Below, one piece after another: positions 3,842 to 32,410 of a DNA stretch of 35,735 nt (the stretch's first letter is position 1; the number at the start of each line of letters is the position of its first letter). The DNA is from a virus. The DNA lies in IMG/VR virus record IMGVR_UViG_3300042691_027157, positions 1 to 35,735 of that record. One strand, written 5' to 3'. The notes under the pieces are model-generated. The model searched no databases. It worked only from the letters and a program-made list of their open reading frames with translations, and was not told the DNA's origin. The translations under genes were made by a program, and so were the position numbers.

Positions 3842-3852
3842 AGGAGCATTTG

Positions 3853-5697
3853 ATGGCCGATATTGGGCAAGATTTCAGCAGTCCCGAAGCAGGGGACTAC
3901 GGTCTCATTCCAGGTGGCAACCCTAGTAAAACAAGGGCAGCTCTGCAAAGTATCCTGGACGCTGGCGGTGACGTCACATTTACGCGGCCGGGGATCTACG
4001 AGATCGACGACGCCCTGCGTATTGGGGATGACACACATCTGCGCATCGGCAAAGGTGTGACCTTAGTTGCGACGTCTAAGTCTGGTCTTACGGGAAAGCC
4101 ACTTCTGATAACCGAGGCGTATTCGCGCCGGTCGCAAGCCGTCACCGTAACGTGTACGTGGTCGTCCGGCACTTCAATGAACGTTCTGTGGACTGCGCAC
4201 GGTCTCGCGGTGGGTGACTGCATCTGGATTCAGGGCGCGACGCTTTCGGTTTACAACACTATCGCCCGTGTGCTTGCGGTTGTCGACGCCAACAATGTGA
4301 CTGTTGATCTTCAGTACGTGCCATCGGGCGCAGTCTCTGGAACGACGACCGCGCTCAAGTGCAACAAGAACATCCGCGTGCAGATCGACGGCATGCTCGA
4401 CCTCAACTACCCGAATCAAGTGTCTGGCGCCGGGCTGGACGCGGTAGGCGTGCATCTTTGCTTGGTCGATGGTCTTGTCGTCGATTCCCTGAACATCAAG
4501 AACGTCGAGAAGTGGGTCATGCAGACCAGCGCGCTCCGCAATGCGTCGGTGCGGAACGTCTACATCGACGGCACCAACTCGGACGGACCCAAGATCATCG
4601 GACCGGCCATCAATGTGCACTATGACGGCATCGGGGGAACCTGCAACGATGACGTGTTCTCCATGCAGGCGAGGGTGCCGGCCGCGTTCGCATCGCAAAT
4701 CTGGACGAACGGGGACATTGTCAACTGCTCGGTGCAAAACGTAAATGGGCGCACGGGCGGATTCGGTCAGGTGTCTCTGTACCCAACCAATACCGAGCGC
4801 ATGCTCGGAATCAAGGTTGAGAACATCGCCGGCGTTTCGGTCGGCGGGCAGGGCGTCAAAGTACAGGCGGAGCATTCTGCGTCGGATGTCATTGACTCGC
4901 TGTCAATTGACAACGTAACCACCACGTGTGTGCAGGGCGTGCGCGTGGGTCGTACGGCGGCAAACGGCGCAATCGTGCAGTCCTTGGAGGTGCGAAACCT
5001 CAACCCGCAGTGTCAGACAACTTCGGCCGCTCCATTTCTCATCGACGCAGGATGCGCGGTATGGGATGGAAACATCCACTTCGCGCTCGATGACACGAAC
5101 GTTTATGGCACGGCTGTGCAGTACGCGGCCATCTCTAACGGAACGCATCGGCGTCTCAAGTTCTCCGGGATCATCAACGGTGGCGGCTCGGCGCGCGGGA
5201 TTCAGTTCTCGACTACAGCACTCGGCGACTATGCGGAAATCTCGCTAGAGATGCGAACCGGGGATCAGGTATGCAACAACGCGGCAACTGGTGCGATTGG
5301 AACAATCGCGTTCAAGGGCTGCGACACGACGACCGCAACGGTCATGCAACCTGCACAGTCTTGCACGCTCGTGTTCGAGGGCAACCGATTCCACAACGCA
5401 TCGAACGGCCTGATCCGTTGTACTGGAACGCCGACTCTGACGGTGCGAAGCGCGGGTAATAACGTGCTGACGGGTACATCTGCATGGTACGTCGTTCCGT
5501 CCGGCACTCCGGTGACTTCGTTCTACGGGTGGGATGTTGCAATCGATCCAATTGCGGCTGTCGGAATTACGACTACTGCGGGTCAGTATTGTCTAAGCAC
5601 GCAGGCGGGTGTAGAAGGCGGTCCCTCGGTAAGAACCCCTGCAGGATGGGTGGCGCTCGGTACTGGTGCCTCTGGTGTGAATACGGTAATCACTTAA
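3853..5697 (+). CDS. Tailspike, right-handed beta-helix (pectate-lyase-like)
   Basis: A 614-residue protein likely to be the receptor-binding and polysaccharide-degrading spike. ATG 3853 follows TAGGAG; the TTG three bases earlier is less likely. Residues about 35-75 match the cap of pectate-lyase-type beta-helices: GGDVTFTRPGIYEIDDALRI followed by GVTL. The rest is a repetitive run of short strands rich in Asn, Val, Ile and Gly (for example VDGLVVDSLNIKNVEKW and ASVRNVYIDGTNSDG), as in coiled beta-helix domains. No catalytic residues can be assigned by eye. There is no obvious head-binding domain, so it may attach through another protein. Codons favour G or C in the third position more than in neighbouring genes, which suggests acquisition by transfer. 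It sits in the head region, apart from the other tail genes. Confidence 0.75.
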   Translation: MADIGQDFSSPEAGDYGLIPGGNPSKTRAALQSILDAGGDVTFTRPGIYEIDDALRIGDDTHLRIGKGVTLVATSKSGLTGKPLLITEAYSRRSQAVTVTCTWSSGTSMNVLWTAHGLAVGDCIWIQGATLSVYNTIARVLAVVDANNVTVDLQYVPSGAVSGTTTALKCNKNIRVQIDGMLDLNYPNQVSGAGLDAVGVHLCLVDGLVVDSLNIKNVEKWVMQTSALRNASVRNVYIDGTNSDGPKIIGPAINVHYDGIGGTCNDDVFSMQARVPAAFASQIWTNGDIVNCSVQNVNGRTGGFGQVSLYPTNTERMLGIKVENIAGVSVGGQGVKVQAEHSASDVIDSLSIDNVTTTCVQGVRVGRTAANGAIVQSLEVRNLNPQCQTTSAAPFLIDAGCAVWDGNIHFALDDTNVYGTAVQYAAISNGTHRRLKFSGIINGGGSARGIQFSTTALGDYAEISLEMRTGDQVCNNAATGAIGTIAFKGCDTTTATVMQPAQSCTLVFEGNRFHNASNGLIRCTGTPTLTVRSAGNNVLTGTSAWYVVPSGTPVTSFYGWDVAIDPIAAVGITTTAGQYCLSTQAGVEGGPSVRTPAGWVALGTGASGVNTVIT

Positions 5698-14473: not shown

Positions 14474-14968
14474 ATGGAAAACGAGTTTAAGACTCTGTGG
14501 GAGTCGTCTGTTGTCGGTCTTGCCTTCGTCTCTCCAGACGGTCATTGGCTTGATGTTAACCCTACCTTGTGCCGTTTCTTGGAGTATTCGGTTCCGGAGC
14601 TCAAGAAGCGGACCTTCAAGGATATCACACACCCTGAAGATGTGGAAGCTGATGGCGGTCTGGCTAATTCAGTCCGCACGGGTGATATCGCCGGATACGA
14701 CCTTGTCAAGAGGTATATCACAAAGTCAGGGAGAGTGGTATGGGCGAACCTCCGTGTGGTTGGCATCTTGGACGAACGAGGCACCTTTGTGGCGTTTCTC
14801 AGTCAAGTCAGCCCGCTCGTGCCCGCCGAGGCCGCTGTTAGAACGACGCAAGCTCGCGCGAGATTCCGATGGCAATGGATCAAAGACTATTGGGCGCAAG
14901 TCCTCTTCGGAATTGGTGTTCTTGCGACTTTAATCTCTCAAATCATAGACCATATCAAGGGTAAGTGA
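14474..14968 (+). CDS. PAS-domain protein with C-terminal membrane anchor
   Basis: A 164-residue protein. Residues about 5-112 form a PAS fold with its PAC motif: FKTLWESSVVGLAFVSPDG, then HWLDVNPTLCRFLEYS, the helix THPEDVEAD and the strand pair YITKSGRVVWANLRV. PAS domains bind small ligands, haem or flavin, or mediate protein contacts in sensors. A linker with Arg/Ala follows and then one membrane helix at about 138-157 (WAQVLFGIGVLATLISQI) with a basic tail. There is no kinase, cyclase or DNA-binding domain. The gene lies between the adhesin and the holin, so a role in lysis timing is inferred. The ribosome site is weak (GGAA at 14465). An overlapping frame from 14463 is rejected as a shadow. 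Confidence 0.75.
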   Translation: MENEFKTLWESSVVGLAFVSPDGHWLDVNPTLCRFLEYSVPELKKRTFKDITHPEDVEADGGLANSVRTGDIAGYDLVKRYITKSGRVVWANLRVVGILDERGTFVAFLSQVSPLVPAEAAVRTTQARARFRWQWIKDYWAQVLFGIGVLATLISQIIDHIKGK

Positions 14969-17036: not shown

Positions 17037-17511
17037 TAGATACCTCTCGTAGAAGTTTCACTGCTGATGCCGTTGGTGCTTTGGTACTGAGTGCATGGTA
17101 TAACACTCCGCACATATGACGCAAGTGTTGATTACCTAGGTCTCGCTGATACAAGCAGAACCTATAGAGTTCGAATCCATCGGCCCACTTAAGGATTTCT
17201 TTGTCTTTCTTCGAAAGAGGGATACCGCTAATTTCAAGCTCATCCTCTACCACAGCTTCCAACTTTTCTAGAAGGTTGTTAAGATCTTTCCATCTCCACT
17301 TGGCGGGGGCGGGAACATCTCCCAGTATCCCCTCGGCCACGTCGTGCAGAAGAGCTTTGGCGACCAAATCCAAAGTCAAACACTCTTCCGCGATCTTGTA
17401 CACGGTGACCGCCACCCCCCACGAATGATCGGCTACCGTTTGCTCCCCGATGATGGCCATGGCGTGACATCGTTTCACTCGTCCATATTGCCACACTTGA
17501 TCATACTGCAT
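17023..17511 (-). CDS. HD-domain 5'-deoxynucleotidase (YfbR-like)
   Basis: A 162-residue enzyme expected to remove phosphate from deoxynucleoside 5'-monophosphates in the cytoplasm. The residues of the YfbR family are in place: Arg11, His29 (VADHSWGV), His56-Asp57 (LLHDVAEG), Glu60, Asp65 (GDVPAPAKW) and Asp111 (KWADGFELY). ATG 17511 is chosen because AGGAGAG lies 6 bases upstream; the longer frame from 17586 would run far into the ThyA-like gene. The relative DatZ of Z-genome phages is a dATP triphosphohydrolase, so triphosphatase activity is also possible. Next to a dUMP-modifying enzyme the most economical role is draining dTMP or another normal nucleotide so that the modified one is used. 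Confidence 0.8.
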   Translation of the reverse strand: MQYDQVWQYGRVKRCHAMAIIGEQTVADHSWGVAVTVYKIAEECLTLDLVAKALLHDVAEGILGDVPAPAKWRWKDLNNLLEKLEAVVEDELEISGIPLSKKDKEILKWADGFELYRFCLYQRDLGNQHLRHMCGVLYHALSTKAPTASAVKLLREVSNGSE

Positions 17512-18475
17512 TGTTTTCTCTCCTAAGAATCCACTCAGTGCATGCGCGCTTCCAATCTTCTGCTTTGCACTCCTGTAGCTCTGCAAGACCGTTAGATGTT
17601 TTGGTTTTTCTAGCCTCCCACGCCGTCATAATCGGCACAGCCACTTCACGGAAGAAAGGGTCGCCGTACCCGCTCTTGTTCAGAGGACTGCTCATGAACT
17701 CTGCAAGATCTTCGAACCATTGTCCAAGAGTTACGCGAATCAACGGGTAGGGTTCAACTCCGGCGGTGTACGGGTTTTCCCACCACTCTATCGGGGGCGT
17801 GTACATTTCTCGGTTGGGAATGTTGTCGTAGATGTGCAGGTTGTTTGTGAACTGAAAATACCTGCCACACAGCATGTTCAATCCTCTGGCGATCACTTCT
17901 TGCAGCATGCTGAAATGTACGACATTGCTCCCGCATGCGCCCCAGATAAGATCATTGCTGCGGTTGCACACCGTCATGTCTAGCGCTCCGTTAACGACAC
18001 GGAAATAGACGTGAGTGTTACATGGAAGGTCTTTGCTTGCCACCAAAGAGTCTTCGGACGGGTCCCACATCCCGATGACGGCTCGCCTGGAGTGCGGGTC
18101 CCTCTCGAGTATGTTGCAAACATCCATGATTTGGTCTACGCGAAAATGCCTGCGCCAGCGATGCCCGTAGGCTCCGTGCAGACTAAAGCCGTCATCGCTG
18201 TAGTCTTTGAATTTCTTGTTGAAATACGCCGGCCACGCCACGTCGTTTTGGCCGTTCAGCATCCACAACGCCTCCATCAAATGGAAGAACGGGTTAGCGT
18301 CGCGGGCAGGCCAGAACAGTACCCGCTCTTCTGGTTGGCGGTACTCCAGCAGTACCGGACTGGCGATTGTCATGACGGGACCGTTCCTAGATGGCTCCGT
18401 ACGCGCCCACGTAGGAAACGCTGAAAGTGCTTCAGACAAGACGTTGTTCACGTTTCTACCGCAGAAGTGAATCAT
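17501..18475 (-). CDS. ThyA-family dUMP (hydroxy)methylase
   Basis: A 324-residue member of the thymidylate synthase superfamily. The aligned active site is complete: Glu68 (MEALWMLNG), Arg130-Arg131 (PHSRRAV), nucleophile Cys152 (LPCNTHV), Arg172-Ser173 and Asp175, Asn184 for uracil recognition, and the His and Tyr of LHIYDN. Asn rather than Asp at 184 points to dUMP, not dCMP. The sequence is far from host ThyA (for example GACGSN in place of LPFN, with one inserted residue). Similar phage enzymes make 5-hydroxymethyl-dUMP. The neighbours (5-hmdU-kinase helical-domain protein, glycosyltransferase, HD nucleotidase) favour hydroxymethylation over ordinary dTMP synthesis. ATG 18475 has GGAGAG upstream. 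Confidence 0.8.
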   Translation of the reverse strand: MIHFCGRNVNNVLSEALSAFPTWARTEPSRNGPVMTIASPVLLEYRQPEERVLFWPARDANPFFHLMEALWMLNGQNDVAWPAYFNKKFKDYSDDGFSLHGAYGHRWRRHFRVDQIMDVCNILERDPHSRRAVIGMWDPSEDSLVASKDLPCNTHVYFRVVNGALDMTVCNRSNDLIWGACGSNVVHFSMLQEVIARGLNMLCGRYFQFTNNLHIYDNIPNREMYTPPIEWWENPYTAGVEPYPLIRVTLGQWFEDLAEFMSSPLNKSGYGDPFFREVAVPIMTAWEARKTKTSNGLAELQECKAEDWKRACTEWILRRENNAV

Positions 18476-18487
18476 ACTGCTCTCCAG

Positions 18488-19303
18488 TTAGTATCGTTGA
18501 CGAGGGGTGCCTTCCCCGAGCTTTACCCGCATATATTTGTCGTACTCGCACAAGCAGTTCTGAATGTCTTGGTTGCAGAGTTCAGAGATAACTTCTGTCG
18601 CCAATCCGCGAGCCACGTGAAAGTTCTCCATAAACTCTTTGTCAGACAGCTTGTACGGCGAGGGTTTGCCGAGCAGTCGTGCTAGTCCACGACGGCTTCC
18701 CGGCCCAGGCACCACAAAGGTATACCAGTCTTCGGTCAAATGCCACGGAGAATTTGTGGTGTTCTTAGCGTCCGCAACTATCTGTCCTGCGATAAAACTT
18801 CCCACCCCGTCGAACGCGCGTAGCGCCCCGTACAGTGCGCGTAAGGGGGTAGGCCATGGCCCCTGCGCGCAACGCGTTGCAATGGGGTCTAAAACGGTCC
18901 TAGCCACATAGACTGGCTTGCTTACGGCGTGCCCATTGGTACCTACTATGTACGCGCTAGACCAACTCTTGAGCCCCTTCAAAGTGCGCTGTTGAATGAC
19001 GTTAACGAACCAATCCGGGCGCCACTCGTATGGGAAGTCTAGCACGTTCAGCGTCTCTGGCCAGTTAACTAGGCGGGCGATGGTCATCGCAAGAATGAAG
19101 TTAGGATGACTGGGGTGGGACCAATTCTTGCGAATCCACTGAGTCACTTTGTCATCTTCACGACGTACGTTGCAGAACCGATACGAATTCAAGATTGGAT
19201 CGTCTGTCCACGGTCGAGGCAGACCAGCATTTTTCTCCAGTCGAACGATTTCACGTTCGTTAATCCAGTGTTGAAACAGATTTTCACGCTCTTGCTGATT
19301 CAT
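18488..19303 (-). CDS. DNA base hypermodification protein, 5-hmdU DNA kinase helical-domain type
   Basis: A 271-residue protein. The N-terminal part matches the helical domain found in 5-hydroxymethyl-dU DNA kinases and related alpha-glutamyl/putrescinyl-thymine pyrophosphorylases: an ER..VRLEKNAG start, then PWTDDPILNSYRFCNVRRED, DKVTQWIRKNW and a later GSFIAGQIVAD helix. Comparative genomics by Iyer and co-workers placed these in a DNA-glycosylase-like superfamily that works on modified pyrimidines in DNA. No P-loop kinase domain is fused. The acting chemistry is therefore unknown; base flipping with transfer onto an activated 5-substituent is an inference. It overlaps the glycosyltransferase by 20 bases and precedes the ThyA-like gene by 12. 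ATG 19303 is preferred to GTG 19306. Confidence 0.8.
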   Translation of the reverse strand: MNQQERENLFQHWINEREIVRLEKNAGLPRPWTDDPILNSYRFCNVRREDDKVTQWIRKNWSHPSHPNFILAMTIARLVNWPETLNVLDFPYEWRPDWFVNVIQQRTLKGLKSWSSAYIVGTNGHAVSKPVYVARTVLDPIATRCAQGPWPTPLRALYGALRAFDGVGSFIAGQIVADAKNTTNSPWHLTEDWYTFVVPGPGSRRGLARLLGKPSPYKLSDKEFMENFHVARGLATEVISELCNQDIQNCLCEYDKYMRVKLGEGTPRQRY

Positions 19304-20432
19304 CACACACTCCTAACAAAGTTTTGATGGTGTCTAGTCTGTCGTGCTGTTTCACATACTCTTCATTGTTCTGTTGAATCTCTGTGAACACGGGCTCTTC
19401 AAAGTTCAAAATCGTATCAACTAGAGTTTTCTCCTGCACCGGCACGTAATTCACCCACGCTTTCATTCCAGTTCCCTCTACGAAGGAATGCTTGCAGAGG
19501 GGGACTGCACCTTTCAGCATGGCTTCTATGACGATTCTGTTTATCTGGCCTCCAGTGCTTTTCTCAGACATGTCTACAAGAAATTTACTGTCTTCCAAAC
19601 AGAAATCTCTTTGGGTTTTAGACATGGAAGGATTCCAAACCATACCGGACGCCAGTGCGGTCTCCCAGATGGGAACACCGTCAGAGTTTTTGAACTTGTC
19701 GGGGCACTTGTCTTTACTCGCCATGTACCTGCGCGCGATACCGTCTCCCCCTAACACGATTCGCCACCCCCGCGCCAATCGGGGAACTTGTCTAACGAGT
19801 TCTTCAGCTTTTTTCCACGGCTTGAATGTTTGAATCATACAAATCTGATCTAGCTTGTCAGACCAAGGGACTATGTTTTTCGTGGAAAGATCGTGTCCGC
19901 TAGACACGATCACTTTGGGGTAGTCTGGCGGTATGCTGTCGTAACTGATTTGCTGTACGCACGCCCACAAATCAATGTGGGGAGCTATCTCACGCGCCCA
20001 GGGGTGTCGTTTGAACATGTGATCGTCTCTAACGAACGCCACCTGTTTAGAGGTCAAATAGTCAAACATCTGCTTGATGTACTGAGGATGTTTCTCATAC
20101 GTGCTGTTGTTCAACCCGTACAGTGCGCCCCATACGACTAGATCTGCCGAGTTGCACTCGTCAATGAACTCGCCCACACTGTATGAATTTTCCAGATCTA
20201 TGACGTGAGCCCCTTTCCAGCCTTTGACTGGATGCACCCACATGTCTGTCGCTTCGCTGTACGTATAGTTCTCATCTGGGGCGGGACGTTGCTTTTGCGA
20301 ATTGAATGTGGGGCTCAGGTAGAAGAACGTAACATCTACACCGAGTTCTTTGGCAGCAGCAACGAGGTTTTCTGAACTCGTTATGATTCCACCGAGGTCT
20401 ATGCCTTTCGGCACTACGTAAATCATTTTCAC
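19284..20432 (-). CDS. GT-B glycosyltransferase, probably acting on modified DNA bases
   Basis: A 382-residue protein with the two-domain layout of nucleotide-sugar glycosyltransferases. Residues 1-30 show the glycine-rich acceptor-side loop (DLGGIITSSENLVAAAKELG), the middle contains a strand-turn VLGGDGIARRYM, and the donor-binding end has STGGQINRIVIEAMLKGAVPL, the usual Glu-containing motif of GT4-like enzymes. There is no membrane segment. GTG 20432 has GGAGAG 7 bases upstream, while ATG 20426 is too far from it. The two following genes concern modified thymidine, so the substrate is probably hydroxymethyl-uracil or a derivative in DNA. Capsular or LPS sugar transfer cannot be excluded. 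Confidence 0.7.
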   Translation of the reverse strand: MKMIYVVPKGIDLGGIITSSENLVAAAKELGVDVTFFYLSPTFNSQKQRPAPDENYTYSEATDMWVHPVKGWKGAHVIDLENSYSVGEFIDECNSADLVVWGALYGLNNSTYEKHPQYIKQMFDYLTSKQVAFVRDDHMFKRHPWAREIAPHIDLWACVQQISYDSIPPDYPKVIVSSGHDLSTKNIVPWSDKLDQICMIQTFKPWKKAEELVRQVPRLARGWRIVLGGDGIARRYMASKDKCPDKFKNSDGVPIWETALASGMVWNPSMSKTQRDFCLEDSKFLVDMSEKSTGGQINRIVIEAMLKGAVPLCKHSFVEGTGMKAWVNYVPVQEKTLVDTILNFEEPVFTEIQQNNEEYVKQHDRLDTIKTLLGVCDESARA

Positions 20433-27056: not shown

Positions 27057-27497
27057 TTATACCGGCCACACATAGGGAAGGTCGTCAGGTACGTCAGGCC
27101 ACATGGGGCCGTAATGCTCAGGCAACTTGCGAATGAGGTTACTGCGGTGTGACAACGTCAACTCTTCGCCGTACATCCAGTCAGGATCTAGACTCGGTAC
27201 TACGGTAGTTCTTGCGTCTTGGAATTGCCTCATAAGATTGTCTTGATAACCGCGTTTGATCCACTCATCGCAAATCCAGATGGCGTACTCGCACAGAGTG
27301 TATTCGTGACCGCGCCACATGCGAACGGCAGGGTGATTCGCCCACCCGCTCGGTTTTTCGGGCAGGGGCACGTCACCTACCTGTACACCGAGTGCACGAA
27401 GAATTTGTTTACACTCTACTCGTTGCTTACCGAGGCGTTTGTAGTCAAGACAAGCGGCGACACCGAAGAACGACGCGTAAGGCATGAACGTTTGCAC
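27057..27497 (-). CDS. Pyrimidine-dimer DNA glycosylase (T4 endonuclease V-like)
   Basis: A 146-residue protein of the Pyr_excise family, which includes T4 DenV and MSMEG_6728-like proteins that cut at UV photoproducts. The conserved N-terminus (the Met is followed by QTFMPYASFFGVAACLDYKR, then LGKQRVECKQIL) is present, as are GWANHPAVRMWRGHEY, LCEYAIWICDEW and the C-terminal SHRSNLIRKLPEHYGPMW. GTG 27497 is chosen because AGGAGAG lies 5 bases upstream. It may protect phage DNA from UV damage, or its glycosylase activity may be adapted to unusual pyrimidines; the first is established for relatives, the second is speculation. Confidence 0.8.
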   Translation of the reverse strand: MQTFMPYASFFGVAACLDYKRLGKQRVECKQILRALGVQVGDVPLPEKPSGWANHPAVRMWRGHEYTLCEYAIWICDEWIKRGYQDNLMRQFQDARTTVVPSLDPDWMYGEELTLSHRSNLIRKLPEHYGPMWPDVPDDLPYVWPV

Positions 27498-28011: not shown

Positions 28012-28126
28012 CAAGATCCTCGATACTGGTTGAGAAGTCTAGCGGGTAAAACACGCGGTACAGAGCCAGTATAGCCGCCCCTGCCAAGAATACAAGTACG
28101 AAATACTCGAGTAGTTCGGTCATCAT
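27914..28126 (-). CDS. Small membrane protein with hydrophilic tail
   Basis: A 70-residue protein whose start (ATG 28126 or 28123) overlaps the stop of the Tat-signal gene. Residues 4-25 are one membrane helix (LLEYFVLVFLAGAAILALYRVF). The remaining 45 residues are polar and low-complexity and share DNA with the next gene in another frame, so the true constraint on the tail is doubtful. Coupling with the Tat-signal protein suggests they act together at the envelope. Confidence 0.5.
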   Translation of the reverse strand: MMTELLEYFVLVFLAGAAILALYRVFYPLDFSTSIEDLDEQRQPNGLPSSREDGAGDGASVRDYDQEQRS

Positions 28127-28476
28127 TCCTCGTAATGTGTGAACGTGTTACCGTCAGTCGTTGCGAAATTCTTCATGTACACGTCGAAAATCTCAGGACC
28201 CTCTAGCAGGAAGATCGGGCCACGCGGGGGACATTTCAGCGTCACTCCACTAGGTATCTCTATGTGAACTGCCCCTCCCCAGTCGAGTTTGATCGTCTGT
28301 TCGATGTCGTACACCCTGGGCGGGAGTAGGTGCATGGTGCCTGACTTAACCGCTTGCATCACGATGTACCAATCGCTGAACGTTCTGGTGTTGATACGCA
28401 TCAGCGATTCGGCTCGAACGATCGCCGGAGCGCAGGAAAGTGCCGCCATCGTACCGAGGAAGCTGCGCCTATTCAT
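28123..28476 (-). CDS. Tat-signal protein with beta-helix cap resembling the tailspike
   Basis: A 117-residue protein with a classical twin-arginine signal: NRRSFLG, a hydrophobic run (TMAALSCAPAIV) and a likely cut after Ala22 (VRA/ES). The mature part is about 95 residues. Residues 44-80 (SGTMHLLPPRVYDIEQTIKL, then the run ending IPSGVTL) follow the same pattern as tailspike residues 37-71 (GGDVTFTRPGIYEIDDALRI, then GKGVTL), the start of a pectate-lyase-type beta-helix. It ends before any coils could form. AGGAGG lies 6 bases before the ATG. Export through the Tat route means it would fold in the cytoplasm and work in the periplasm or outside. Purpose unknown. Confidence 0.65.
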   Translation of the reverse strand: MNRRSFLGTMAALSCAPAIVRAESLMRINTRTFSDWYIVMQAVKSGTMHLLPPRVYDIEQTIKLDWGGAVHIEIPSGVTLKCPPRGPIFLLEGPEIFDVYMKNFATTDGNTFTHYEE

Positions 28477-28903
28477 TTTTTCCTCCTGTCGAATCGCGGC
28501 GGGCGATAAGACGTTTTAAAGAGCTGACTAGTATCACATCACTATCGGACAGACACTCCCTCGCCTTCAACGAGTGTCGAGCAATGTCCTCGTCGCTCAG
28601 CTCACGGCGGGGCGGGTGAAGCTTCCCTGTTGCGTTACATGTTTCGCAGTGAATCCACTCATCACATCCCATGTATCTTTTGCCGAGGCCTTGACACTTG
28701 TGACAGATAGCCGGCTCCGCATCTGCCTGCGCCTCGGCCTTAGCCGATTCGGCCAGCGCGGCGCGGTCGGCATACGCGATTAGTGCCTTGCGCAAGATTT
28801 CGTGCGCGTGTCGCCCCGTATCGCTGCGCGCGAGTTCCGGAGTGACGTTCAGCAACGCTACGGCTTGGCAGATGATGGCGTGCAATTCATCCTCTAGGCT
28901 CAT
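28469..28903 (-). CDS. Protein with DnaJ-like CxxCxGxG zinc motifs
   Basis: A 144-residue protein. ATG 28903 has GGAGG 7 bases upstream and overlaps the previous stop. The first half is helical (LEDELHAIICQAVALLNV). The middle has CHKCQGLGK and, 15 residues on, CETCNATGK, two halves of a zinc site as in the DnaJ cysteine-rich domain. The C-terminus is charged. Short phage proteins with this motif are widespread and undefined. G+C and the gene-junction sequence match the next two genes upstream. Confidence 0.6.
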   Translation of the reverse strand: MSLEDELHAIICQAVALLNVTPELARSDTGRHAHEILRKALIAYADRAALAESAKAEAQADAEPAICHKCQGLGKRYMGCDEWIHCETCNATGKLHPPRRELSDEDIARHSLKARECLSDSDVILVSSLKRLIARRDSTGGKNE

Positions 28904-31556: not shown

Positions 31557-31955
31557 ATGAGTGAAAATGCTGAGAAGTGGATCGCCGCTCTGCGGAGTGG
31601 TACGTATGCGCAGGGGCGCGGGTTGTTGCGTCAAGACGACTGCTACTGTGTCTGGGGCGTGGCTTGTGATGTTTCCGGGCTCGGTACGTGGAAGCCTGTC
31701 CAACCTGGGTTTCACACGCTCGAGTTCAAGTACGACGAATTCACTGGTGCCACGGGCTCTCCTCCTGAAAAGGTTGTTGACTGGGTCGGTAAAGGATTCT
31801 GGTACGACTTTGGTGTCTCCGGTAGGTTGGGTAAGGACTACACCTTGATGGATCTCAACGATGGCGATAGTGTGGAGCCTGTCACCTTCGATCAGCTCGC
31901 CGATTTGATCGAAGCTTTCCTTAACGGTTGGAATCTCAAAGTGGGGGTGTTCTGA
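31557..31955 (+). CDS. Tandem paralogue 1 of a phage domain with YC.WGVAC motif
   Basis: A 132-residue protein. The N-terminal segment (EKWIAALRSGTYAQGRGLLR, then DCYCVWGVACDVSGLG) is a common motif of small phage proteins whose function is not known. The end (EPVTFDQLADLIEAFLNGWNL) is shared closely with the next gene. The stop overlaps the next start (TGATG), so the two are coupled. The two conserved cysteines could bind a metal or form a pair. The C-terminal helices resemble a protein-interaction module. Confidence 0.65.
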   Translation: MSENAEKWIAALRSGTYAQGRGLLRQDDCYCVWGVACDVSGLGTWKPVQPGFHTLEFKYDEFTGATGSPPEKVVDWVGKGFWYDFGVSGRLGKDYTLMDLNDGDSVEPVTFDQLADLIEAFLNGWNLKVGVF

Positions 31956-32410
31956 TGTTGAACGAAACCAATGTTCGTAAATGGATCGAAGCTCTTCGCA
32001 GTGGTAAGTACACGCAGACCCGCGAACGTCTGAAGGACGATGTGGGCTACTGCTGTTGGGGAGTGGCTTGTGAGATCTCCGGGCTGGGAGAGTTCAAATG
32101 GATGTCTCGTGATCACGAGTGGGCGTTTTCCTCAGGTGATGGGTGTAGGTCTCTCGGCAATCCGTCGCTTGGAGTTATCGCCTGGGCGGGCGCGTATGAT
32201 CTGGACCACATTCGCGTGGCCGGCATCAAACACGATCGCGATGGTAGAAATCCTCTTGAGTGTGCATACTCACTAATCGAGTGTAACGATGAAATCGGGT
32301 TGAGTTTCGATCAGATCGCAGACATTCTCGAGGCGCATCTTAACGGGTGGGATCTCAATCCGACGAACGTACCTCACTGGAGTGATGTGGCTGTAGACAA
32401 GGAGGTGTAG
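31955..32410 (+). CDS. Tandem paralogue 2 of a phage domain with YC.WGVAC motif
   Basis: A 151-residue protein starting at ATG 31955 inside the stop of the first copy. It has the same blocks in the same order: RKWIEALRSGKYTQTRERLK, then YCCWGVACEISGLGEFK, and IGLSFDQIADILEAHLNGWDL at the end. The middle is different and contains an extra His/Trp-rich part (RDHEWAFSSGDG). The pair is a clear gene duplication that has diverged. A role as early host-takeover proteins is possible but not shown. Confidence 0.65.
   Translation: MLNETNVRKWIEALRSGKYTQTRERLKDDVGYCCWGVACEISGLGEFKWMSRDHEWAFSSGDGCRSLGNPSLGVIAWAGAYDLDHIRVAGIKHDRDGRNPLECAYSLIECNDEIGLSFDQIADILEAHLNGWDLNPTNVPHWSDVAVDKEV

Follow-up and report, generated by a model that had tools for sequence, protein, structure and literature searches.

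The window analysed here, 35,735 bases of viral DNA, is laid out in two parts, with a replication block that reads leftwards and a virion block that reads rightwards, and its capsid protein has relatives in phages of Stenotrophomonas, Myxococcus (Mx8) and Bradyrhizobium. P0001 is located within the leftward early/replication block, about 23 kb from the gene encoding the tailspike. Its 117 codons, read from 28476 to 28123, translate as MNRRSFLGTMAALSCAPAIVRAESLMRINTRTFSDWYIVMQAVKSGTMHLLPPRVYDIEQTIKLDWGGAVHIEIPSGVTLKCPPRGPIFLLEGPEIFDVYMKNFATTDGNTFTHYEE. The first-pass annotation had placed an ORF here and this is borne out: P0001 is a real and convincing gene, with the ribosome-binding site, the overlaps at both ends (Table 1) and the codon bias all in agreement, the P0001 frame being the only one of the six to score positively (0.121, the other five being negative). 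The ORF immediately downstream is a less certain call, as 101 nt of it are shared with the gene that follows. Also near P0001 is a gene (27057-27497, minus strand) encoding a protein of the pyrimidine-dimer DNA glycosylase family (PF03013, E 1e-19) that has 119 relatives in viral contigs.

Table 1. Features of the P0001 locus and of the tailspike gene with which P0001 was compared
Feature	Coordinates	Strand	Evidence
P0001 gene, Tat-leader mini-protein	28123..28476	minus	117-aa ORF, RBS, overlaps, codon bias
AGGAGG ribosome-binding site, ATG five bases on	28482..28487	minus	sequence
Gene upstream of P0001	28469..28939	minus	stop overlaps P0001 start, 8 nt
70-aa ORF downstream of P0001	27914..28126	minus	single hydrophobic stretch at N-terminus; ATGA overlap with P0001
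Tat-type leader, residues 1-22, predicted cut between VRA and E	28411..28476	minus	motif; leaders of Rhodobacterales L,D-transpeptidase, L251 and L266 alike
P0001 residues 46-81, like tailspike start	28234..28341	minus	alignment, shuffles, own-phage search
Tailspike-like gene, compared partner, non-adjacent	3850..5697	plus	Quill_5.2 relative; beta-helix cap profile
Tailspike residues 40-73, counterpart of the P0001 stretch	3967..4068	plus	alignment

The leader of P0001 and its relatives

Judged by its motifs, the leader of P0001 is of the standard Tat type. The sequence before the predicted cut, MNRRSFLGTMAALSCAPAIVRA, with E following, fits a Tat signal and comprises N-R-R-S-F-L-G, a moderately hydrophobic stretch of about 15 residues and APAIVRA ahead of the E, the c-region Arg lying just before the cut. 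P0001 (MNRRSFLG...IVRA-E) thus has each element of the Tat pattern: an S/T-R-R-x-F-L-K-like motif, a hydrophobic stretch and an A-x-A type cut. The twin-arginine signal noted in the first-pass annotation is borne out by the motif alone, the Pfam TAT_signal model scoring P0001 below its cut-off (E 0.083), as it likewise does a bacterial L,D-transpeptidase with a similar leader (E 0.012). Export by the Tat route and subsequent cleavage are predicted from these features. A Tat product would be delivered to the periplasm and not to the cell surface, barring further export.

Searches of phages, viral contigs, GTDB contigs and 290 genomes from the phylum to which L193 belongs brought up no homologue of the entire protein, a result that means no close relative within these collections and nothing broader. 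Plasmid sequences likewise yielded matches to the leader only and no whole-protein homologue. All of these matches (E 0.9-3) are to the leaders of Rhodobacterales L,D-transpeptidases, which read NRRSLLG...APSVVRAE and have a nearly identical layout; the bodies of these enzymes are different, however, the likeness being confined to the leader and a few residues beyond (E ~1). Relatives of the window phage have replication genes in common with it, but the P0001 gene is missing or the contig ends early; in the nearest, L112, whose DNA polymerase is 68% identical, the contig stops just before the P0001 locus. Two other candidates were rejected: a match to L132 (E 0.009) is put down to chance, being in a different frame and antisense to a gene, and a frameshifted longer beta-helix gene has no downstream continuation, the next frame being a hydrophobic ORF.

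Within 2.2 Mb of related viral loci, the RRxFL leader of P0001 stands alone, the other pattern matches being mostly KR leaders resembling Sec signals or doubtful frames. The first-pass statement that phage-encoded Tat substrates are rare is nevertheless not borne out: across viral contigs, a single codon-restricted DNA pattern for MNRRxFL[GA] matched 51 stretches. These contain 45 ORFs of at least 60 amino acids (39 distinct), and 32 ORFs have a Tat-like hydrophobic stretch and a cleavage motif, some being near-copies of one another. Since IMG/VR contigs may hold misassigned host DNA, individual cases need care; the L244, L236 and L247 ORFs overlap neighbouring genes end to start.

The leader of L251 is closest to that of P0001, with 71% of residues 1-28 identical (E 6e-10), followed by that of L266 (55% over 33 residues, E 7e-5). 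Conservation among the three extends beyond the predicted cut (APAIVRAxSLM), and the alignments place P0001 within the shared-leader pattern MNRRxFLG..APAIVRAxSLM. A second pattern, MDRRxFL, added L279, with the leader APAFVRIGSLMRP. Searches of named phages with the leader alone and with the leader consensus gave no matches, and so no named isolate carrying a leader of the P0001 type was identified. A subgroup comprising L233, L239, L257 and L265 has in common MNRRxFL...(D)xxxLLWxPGxKxISIP after a short hydrophobic stretch, with no clear cleavage site.

Resemblance of the P0001 body to the tailspike start

The tailspike-like ORF has a relative in Caulobacter phage Quill_5.2 (E 8e-34), and its residues 30-77 match a beta-helix cap profile that we built ourselves at 14.5 bits, a score equalled by none of 2000 shuffles. 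It had been proposed that residues 44-80 of P0001 share a strand pattern with tailspike residues 37-71; a weak match does exist, in a slightly different register, with P0001 46-81 aligning to tailspike 40-73 and 11 of 33 aligned pairs identical (33%). When P0001 was compared with tailspike residues 1-120 by Smith-Waterman alignment, none of 2000 shuffles scored equally well (p <0.0005), and with the full tailspike p ranged from 0.0005 to 0.0035 across three matrices. The hhalign score against a four-sequence tailspike profile (20.06) exceeded all of 300 shuffles, and the tailspike was the first or second best partner of P0001 among the window proteins in all schemes. Other results are less favourable: the match is absent from BLASTP, the P0001 regions flanking the matching stretch give no significant alignment to the tailspike on their own, and in one scheme an unrelated window protein scored 58 against 57 for the tailspike. 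These comparisons show a resemblance that is real but weak, repeatable and better than nearly all shuffles, whilst tailspike mimicry, as read from a 35-residue match at 33% identity with some 50 possible partners counted, is borderline.

Whether the likeness is to this tailspike in particular is a separate matter. The tailspike relatives that can be aligned at their start (Quill, Curvibacter and LL11) do not match P0001 (p 0.10-0.39), and a search of viral contigs with the tailspike gave no matches. Generic PF12708 caps, on the other hand, match P0001 above chance in 7 of 28 cases, and the match is thus accounted for equally well by a beta-helix start in general and by mimicry of the tailspike. 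Of the earlier proposal of mimicry, then, the Tat-type leader and the beta-helix-start-like stretch fit the sequence, but the tailspike homologues do not match and generic caps are nearly as plausible. Profile comparison gave p ~0.01-0.02 for generic beta-helix cap profiles, yet P0001 lies below every family threshold, with no beta-helix or pectin-lyase-like family match in Pfam, PHROG or NCBIfam; against our own cap profile it scored 1.3 bits, with 19 of 2000 shuffles equally good. Structure prediction, which had been suggested as a check, yielded no fold, AlphaFold run on the single sequence without an alignment reaching pLDDT values of only 42.3 and 32.4. Set against right-handed beta-helix proteins of the pectin-lyase-like kind, among them PF12708 members and phage tailspikes, P0001 has the strand pattern of a first rung, at about GTMHLLPPRVYDIEQTIKL, but at only ~95 residues has no further rungs.

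Own-virion resemblance among Tat-leader mini-proteins

Several of the other Tat-leader mini-proteins resemble virion proteins. The L251 body matches the capsid family phrog_283 (E 0.003), and all three of its named-phage matches are major capsid proteins (E 0.02-0.07); the top named-phage matches of L266 are two capsid proteins (E ~0.01), and L271 passes the threshold for the capsid family PF20911 (E 4e-7). The head-tail connector family phrog_332 is matched by L244 (E 6e-4) and L243 (E 9e-4), the former weakening to E 0.022 after the body is split.

To each mini-protein body we then applied an own-phage test, comparing it with the proteins of its own contig and taking the expectation from swapped phages. 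Matches at E<0.01 were obtained for 5 of 38 mini-proteins, where swapped phages lead one to expect 0.57: L266 with its own major capsid protein (1e-5), L243 with its own portal (4e-5) and L263, L258 and L231 with the C-terminus of their own tape measure (4e-4 to 5e-3). The identities of these targets as capsid, portal and tape measure are confirmed by PHROGs, for the tape measure via the target of L263. P0001 ranks seventh, with the tailspike at E 0.075. In addition, L279 resembles the N-terminus of its own capsid protein. L277 (L307:13484-13930) is an apparent mosaic, one stretch resembling its own capsid protein and the adjoining one its own head-closure protein (the genes compared with it lie at L307:16487-17257 and L307:11681-13216).

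As a control, other small ORFs of the same phages gave own-phage matches at E<0.01 in 10 of 89 cases (11%), a rate that taken by itself pointed to no enrichment; on inspection these were small paralogue pairs, low-complexity sequences or antisense frames. With targets restricted to those of at least 250 amino acids, 0-1 of the 89 controls remain, against 5 of the 38 Tat mini-proteins (Fisher p 0.002-0.009, or 0.02-0.07 with the tape-measure group collapsed to one). This length cut was chosen after the data were seen, and the leader-plus-virion-segment class is therefore a well-motivated hypothesis and not an established fact. From the comparison across phages, a class defined as a leader plus a piece of the phage's own virion protein is credible, and P0001 with its tailspike-like stretch may be a weak instance, among the weaker members. 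We found no description in the literature of Tat-leader mini-proteins resembling segments of their own virion. A broader proposal is that such mini-proteins form a class that has gone unrecognised although many phages encode it, each consisting of a conserved Tat-type leader followed by one or more pieces of virion proteins from the phage itself (capsid, portal, tape measure or tailspike). The mini-proteins would act at the envelope as decoys, or would compete there for the partners of those parts, P0001 being the tailspike version; this is speculative and in our estimation rather unlikely.

Possible roles for P0001 at the envelope

The explanation that we put forward, as a tentative one, is that P0001 is a mini-protein with a Tat-type leader and a tailspike-like segment that acts at the envelope and hinders incoming or co-infecting phage. 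Produced from the early region, the protein would be directed by its leader to the inner membrane or the periplasm, and a stretch of its 95-residue body would resemble the opening turn of the beta-helix of the phage's tailspike; the protein would probably be one of a recurring kind in which such a leader is coupled to a short virion-protein-like segment. That segment might dock at the envelope either onto the virion part or onto whatever is its natural partner, and docking could then lead to superinfection exclusion. The traits of P0001 that are predicted from sequence and bear on superinfection exclusion are its small size, its leader motif and its early/replication-block position; folding, binding and the superinfection role itself are inferred, and we regard superinfection interference as possible though on the doubtful side. 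Capsid- and portal-like bodies suit such a role poorly, because those parts of the particle remain outside the cell; they would be better suited to a membrane-anchored role in assembly, or to acting as decoys for the host's virion-protein sensors.

A serious competitor, to which we give a substantial if minority share of belief, is that P0001 is an ordinary orphan accessory protein, short, beta-rich and exported via Tat by default in the host, whose match to the tailspike is due to chance or to generic beta-strand character and is unrelated to its function, which might be, for example, envelope modification or protection during infection. That P0001 has no homologue in the collections searched, that an unrelated protein ties the match in one scheme, that BLASTP fails to report the match, and that many Tat mini-proteins lack virion resemblance are all consistent with this. 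It sits less easily with the shuffle tests under three matrices and the hhalign result, both of which favour the tailspike, with the tailspike being first or second partner in every scheme, and with own-virion resemblance being seen again in other mini-proteins.

A further reading, for which the conservation past the predicted cut (SLM) speaks, is that the leader serves as a membrane anchor and not as an export signal. P0001 and its kin would then be held at the inner membrane face, with the virion-like segment binding particles under assembly or the host's sensors of virion proteins. For capsid-, portal- and tape-measure-like bodies this arrangement is more fitting than export, and related leaders such as MNRRGFLGALLGAATFDPE have no cleavage motif; P0001, however, has a good VRA-E motif and a positive c-region, as in exported L,D-transpeptidases, and for P0001 we think anchoring improbable. 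More improbable still is that P0001 is the N-terminal end of a captured bacterial Tat-exported beta-helix protein, shortened and kept as a stub or minimal cap: the order of leader, short linker and cap-like stretch, the above-chance PF12708 and profile matches and the likeness of the leader to alphaproteobacterial ones are as expected, but TIGR03808 (NCBIfam), the model of one known family of such proteins, has no match in the window even at E 10, no bacterial homologue of P0001 was found (GTDB contigs and the 290 genomes), the P0001 stop codon is part of a tight gene overlap and remnants of further rungs are absent downstream in all frames.

With regard to interference at the envelope, early exported phage proteins that exclude superinfection do exist. 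The T4 Spackle protein is a periplasmic inhibitor that binds the gp5 tail lysozyme (PMC7677548), whilst T5 Llp acts from the periplasmic side to block FhuA and so brings about superinfection exclusion (PMC9586334). As P0001 is predicted to be, Spackle is a small early product that carries an export signal (~97 aa, of which 75 form the mature domain), and it acts on a phage tail part in the periplasm (PMC7677548); it differs in that it is alpha-helical with a disulphide, binds a tail enzyme, is not reported to be a copy of a virion segment and has a proven function. Llp and the Cor-type lipoproteins are, as P0001 is predicted to be, very small exported phage proteins, and block the receptor from the periplasmic side (PMC9586334), but they are lipoproteins that bind a host receptor, whereas P0001 has a poor lipobox at best (ALSC) and a Tat-type leader.

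Were the class of leader-plus-virion-segment proteins to prove true, phages would be exporting, or anchoring in the membrane, fragments of their own particles, a new means by which rivals could be excluded, assembly tuned or host sensors for virion proteins misled. It would also provide a function for many anonymous small phage genes and a reason for phages to retain Tat-type leaders.

Elsewhere in the window, a PAS-domain protein with a hydrophobic C-terminal stretch (14474-14968, plus strand; PF13426, E 1e-7), for which no match was found in named phages, is encoded in the lysis cassette, flanked by tail genes on one side and by holin-like and lysozyme-like genes on the other. The region 17501-20432 (minus strand) is likely to be a DNA-base hypermodification block, as it encodes a 5-hmdU DNA kinase helical-domain protein (PF18723, E 1e-35) together with thymidylate-synthase-like and glycosyltransferase-like proteins (both recognised by eye). 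Finally, the ORFs at 31557-31955 and 31928-32410 (plus strand) are overlapping tandem paralogues that are 35% identical.
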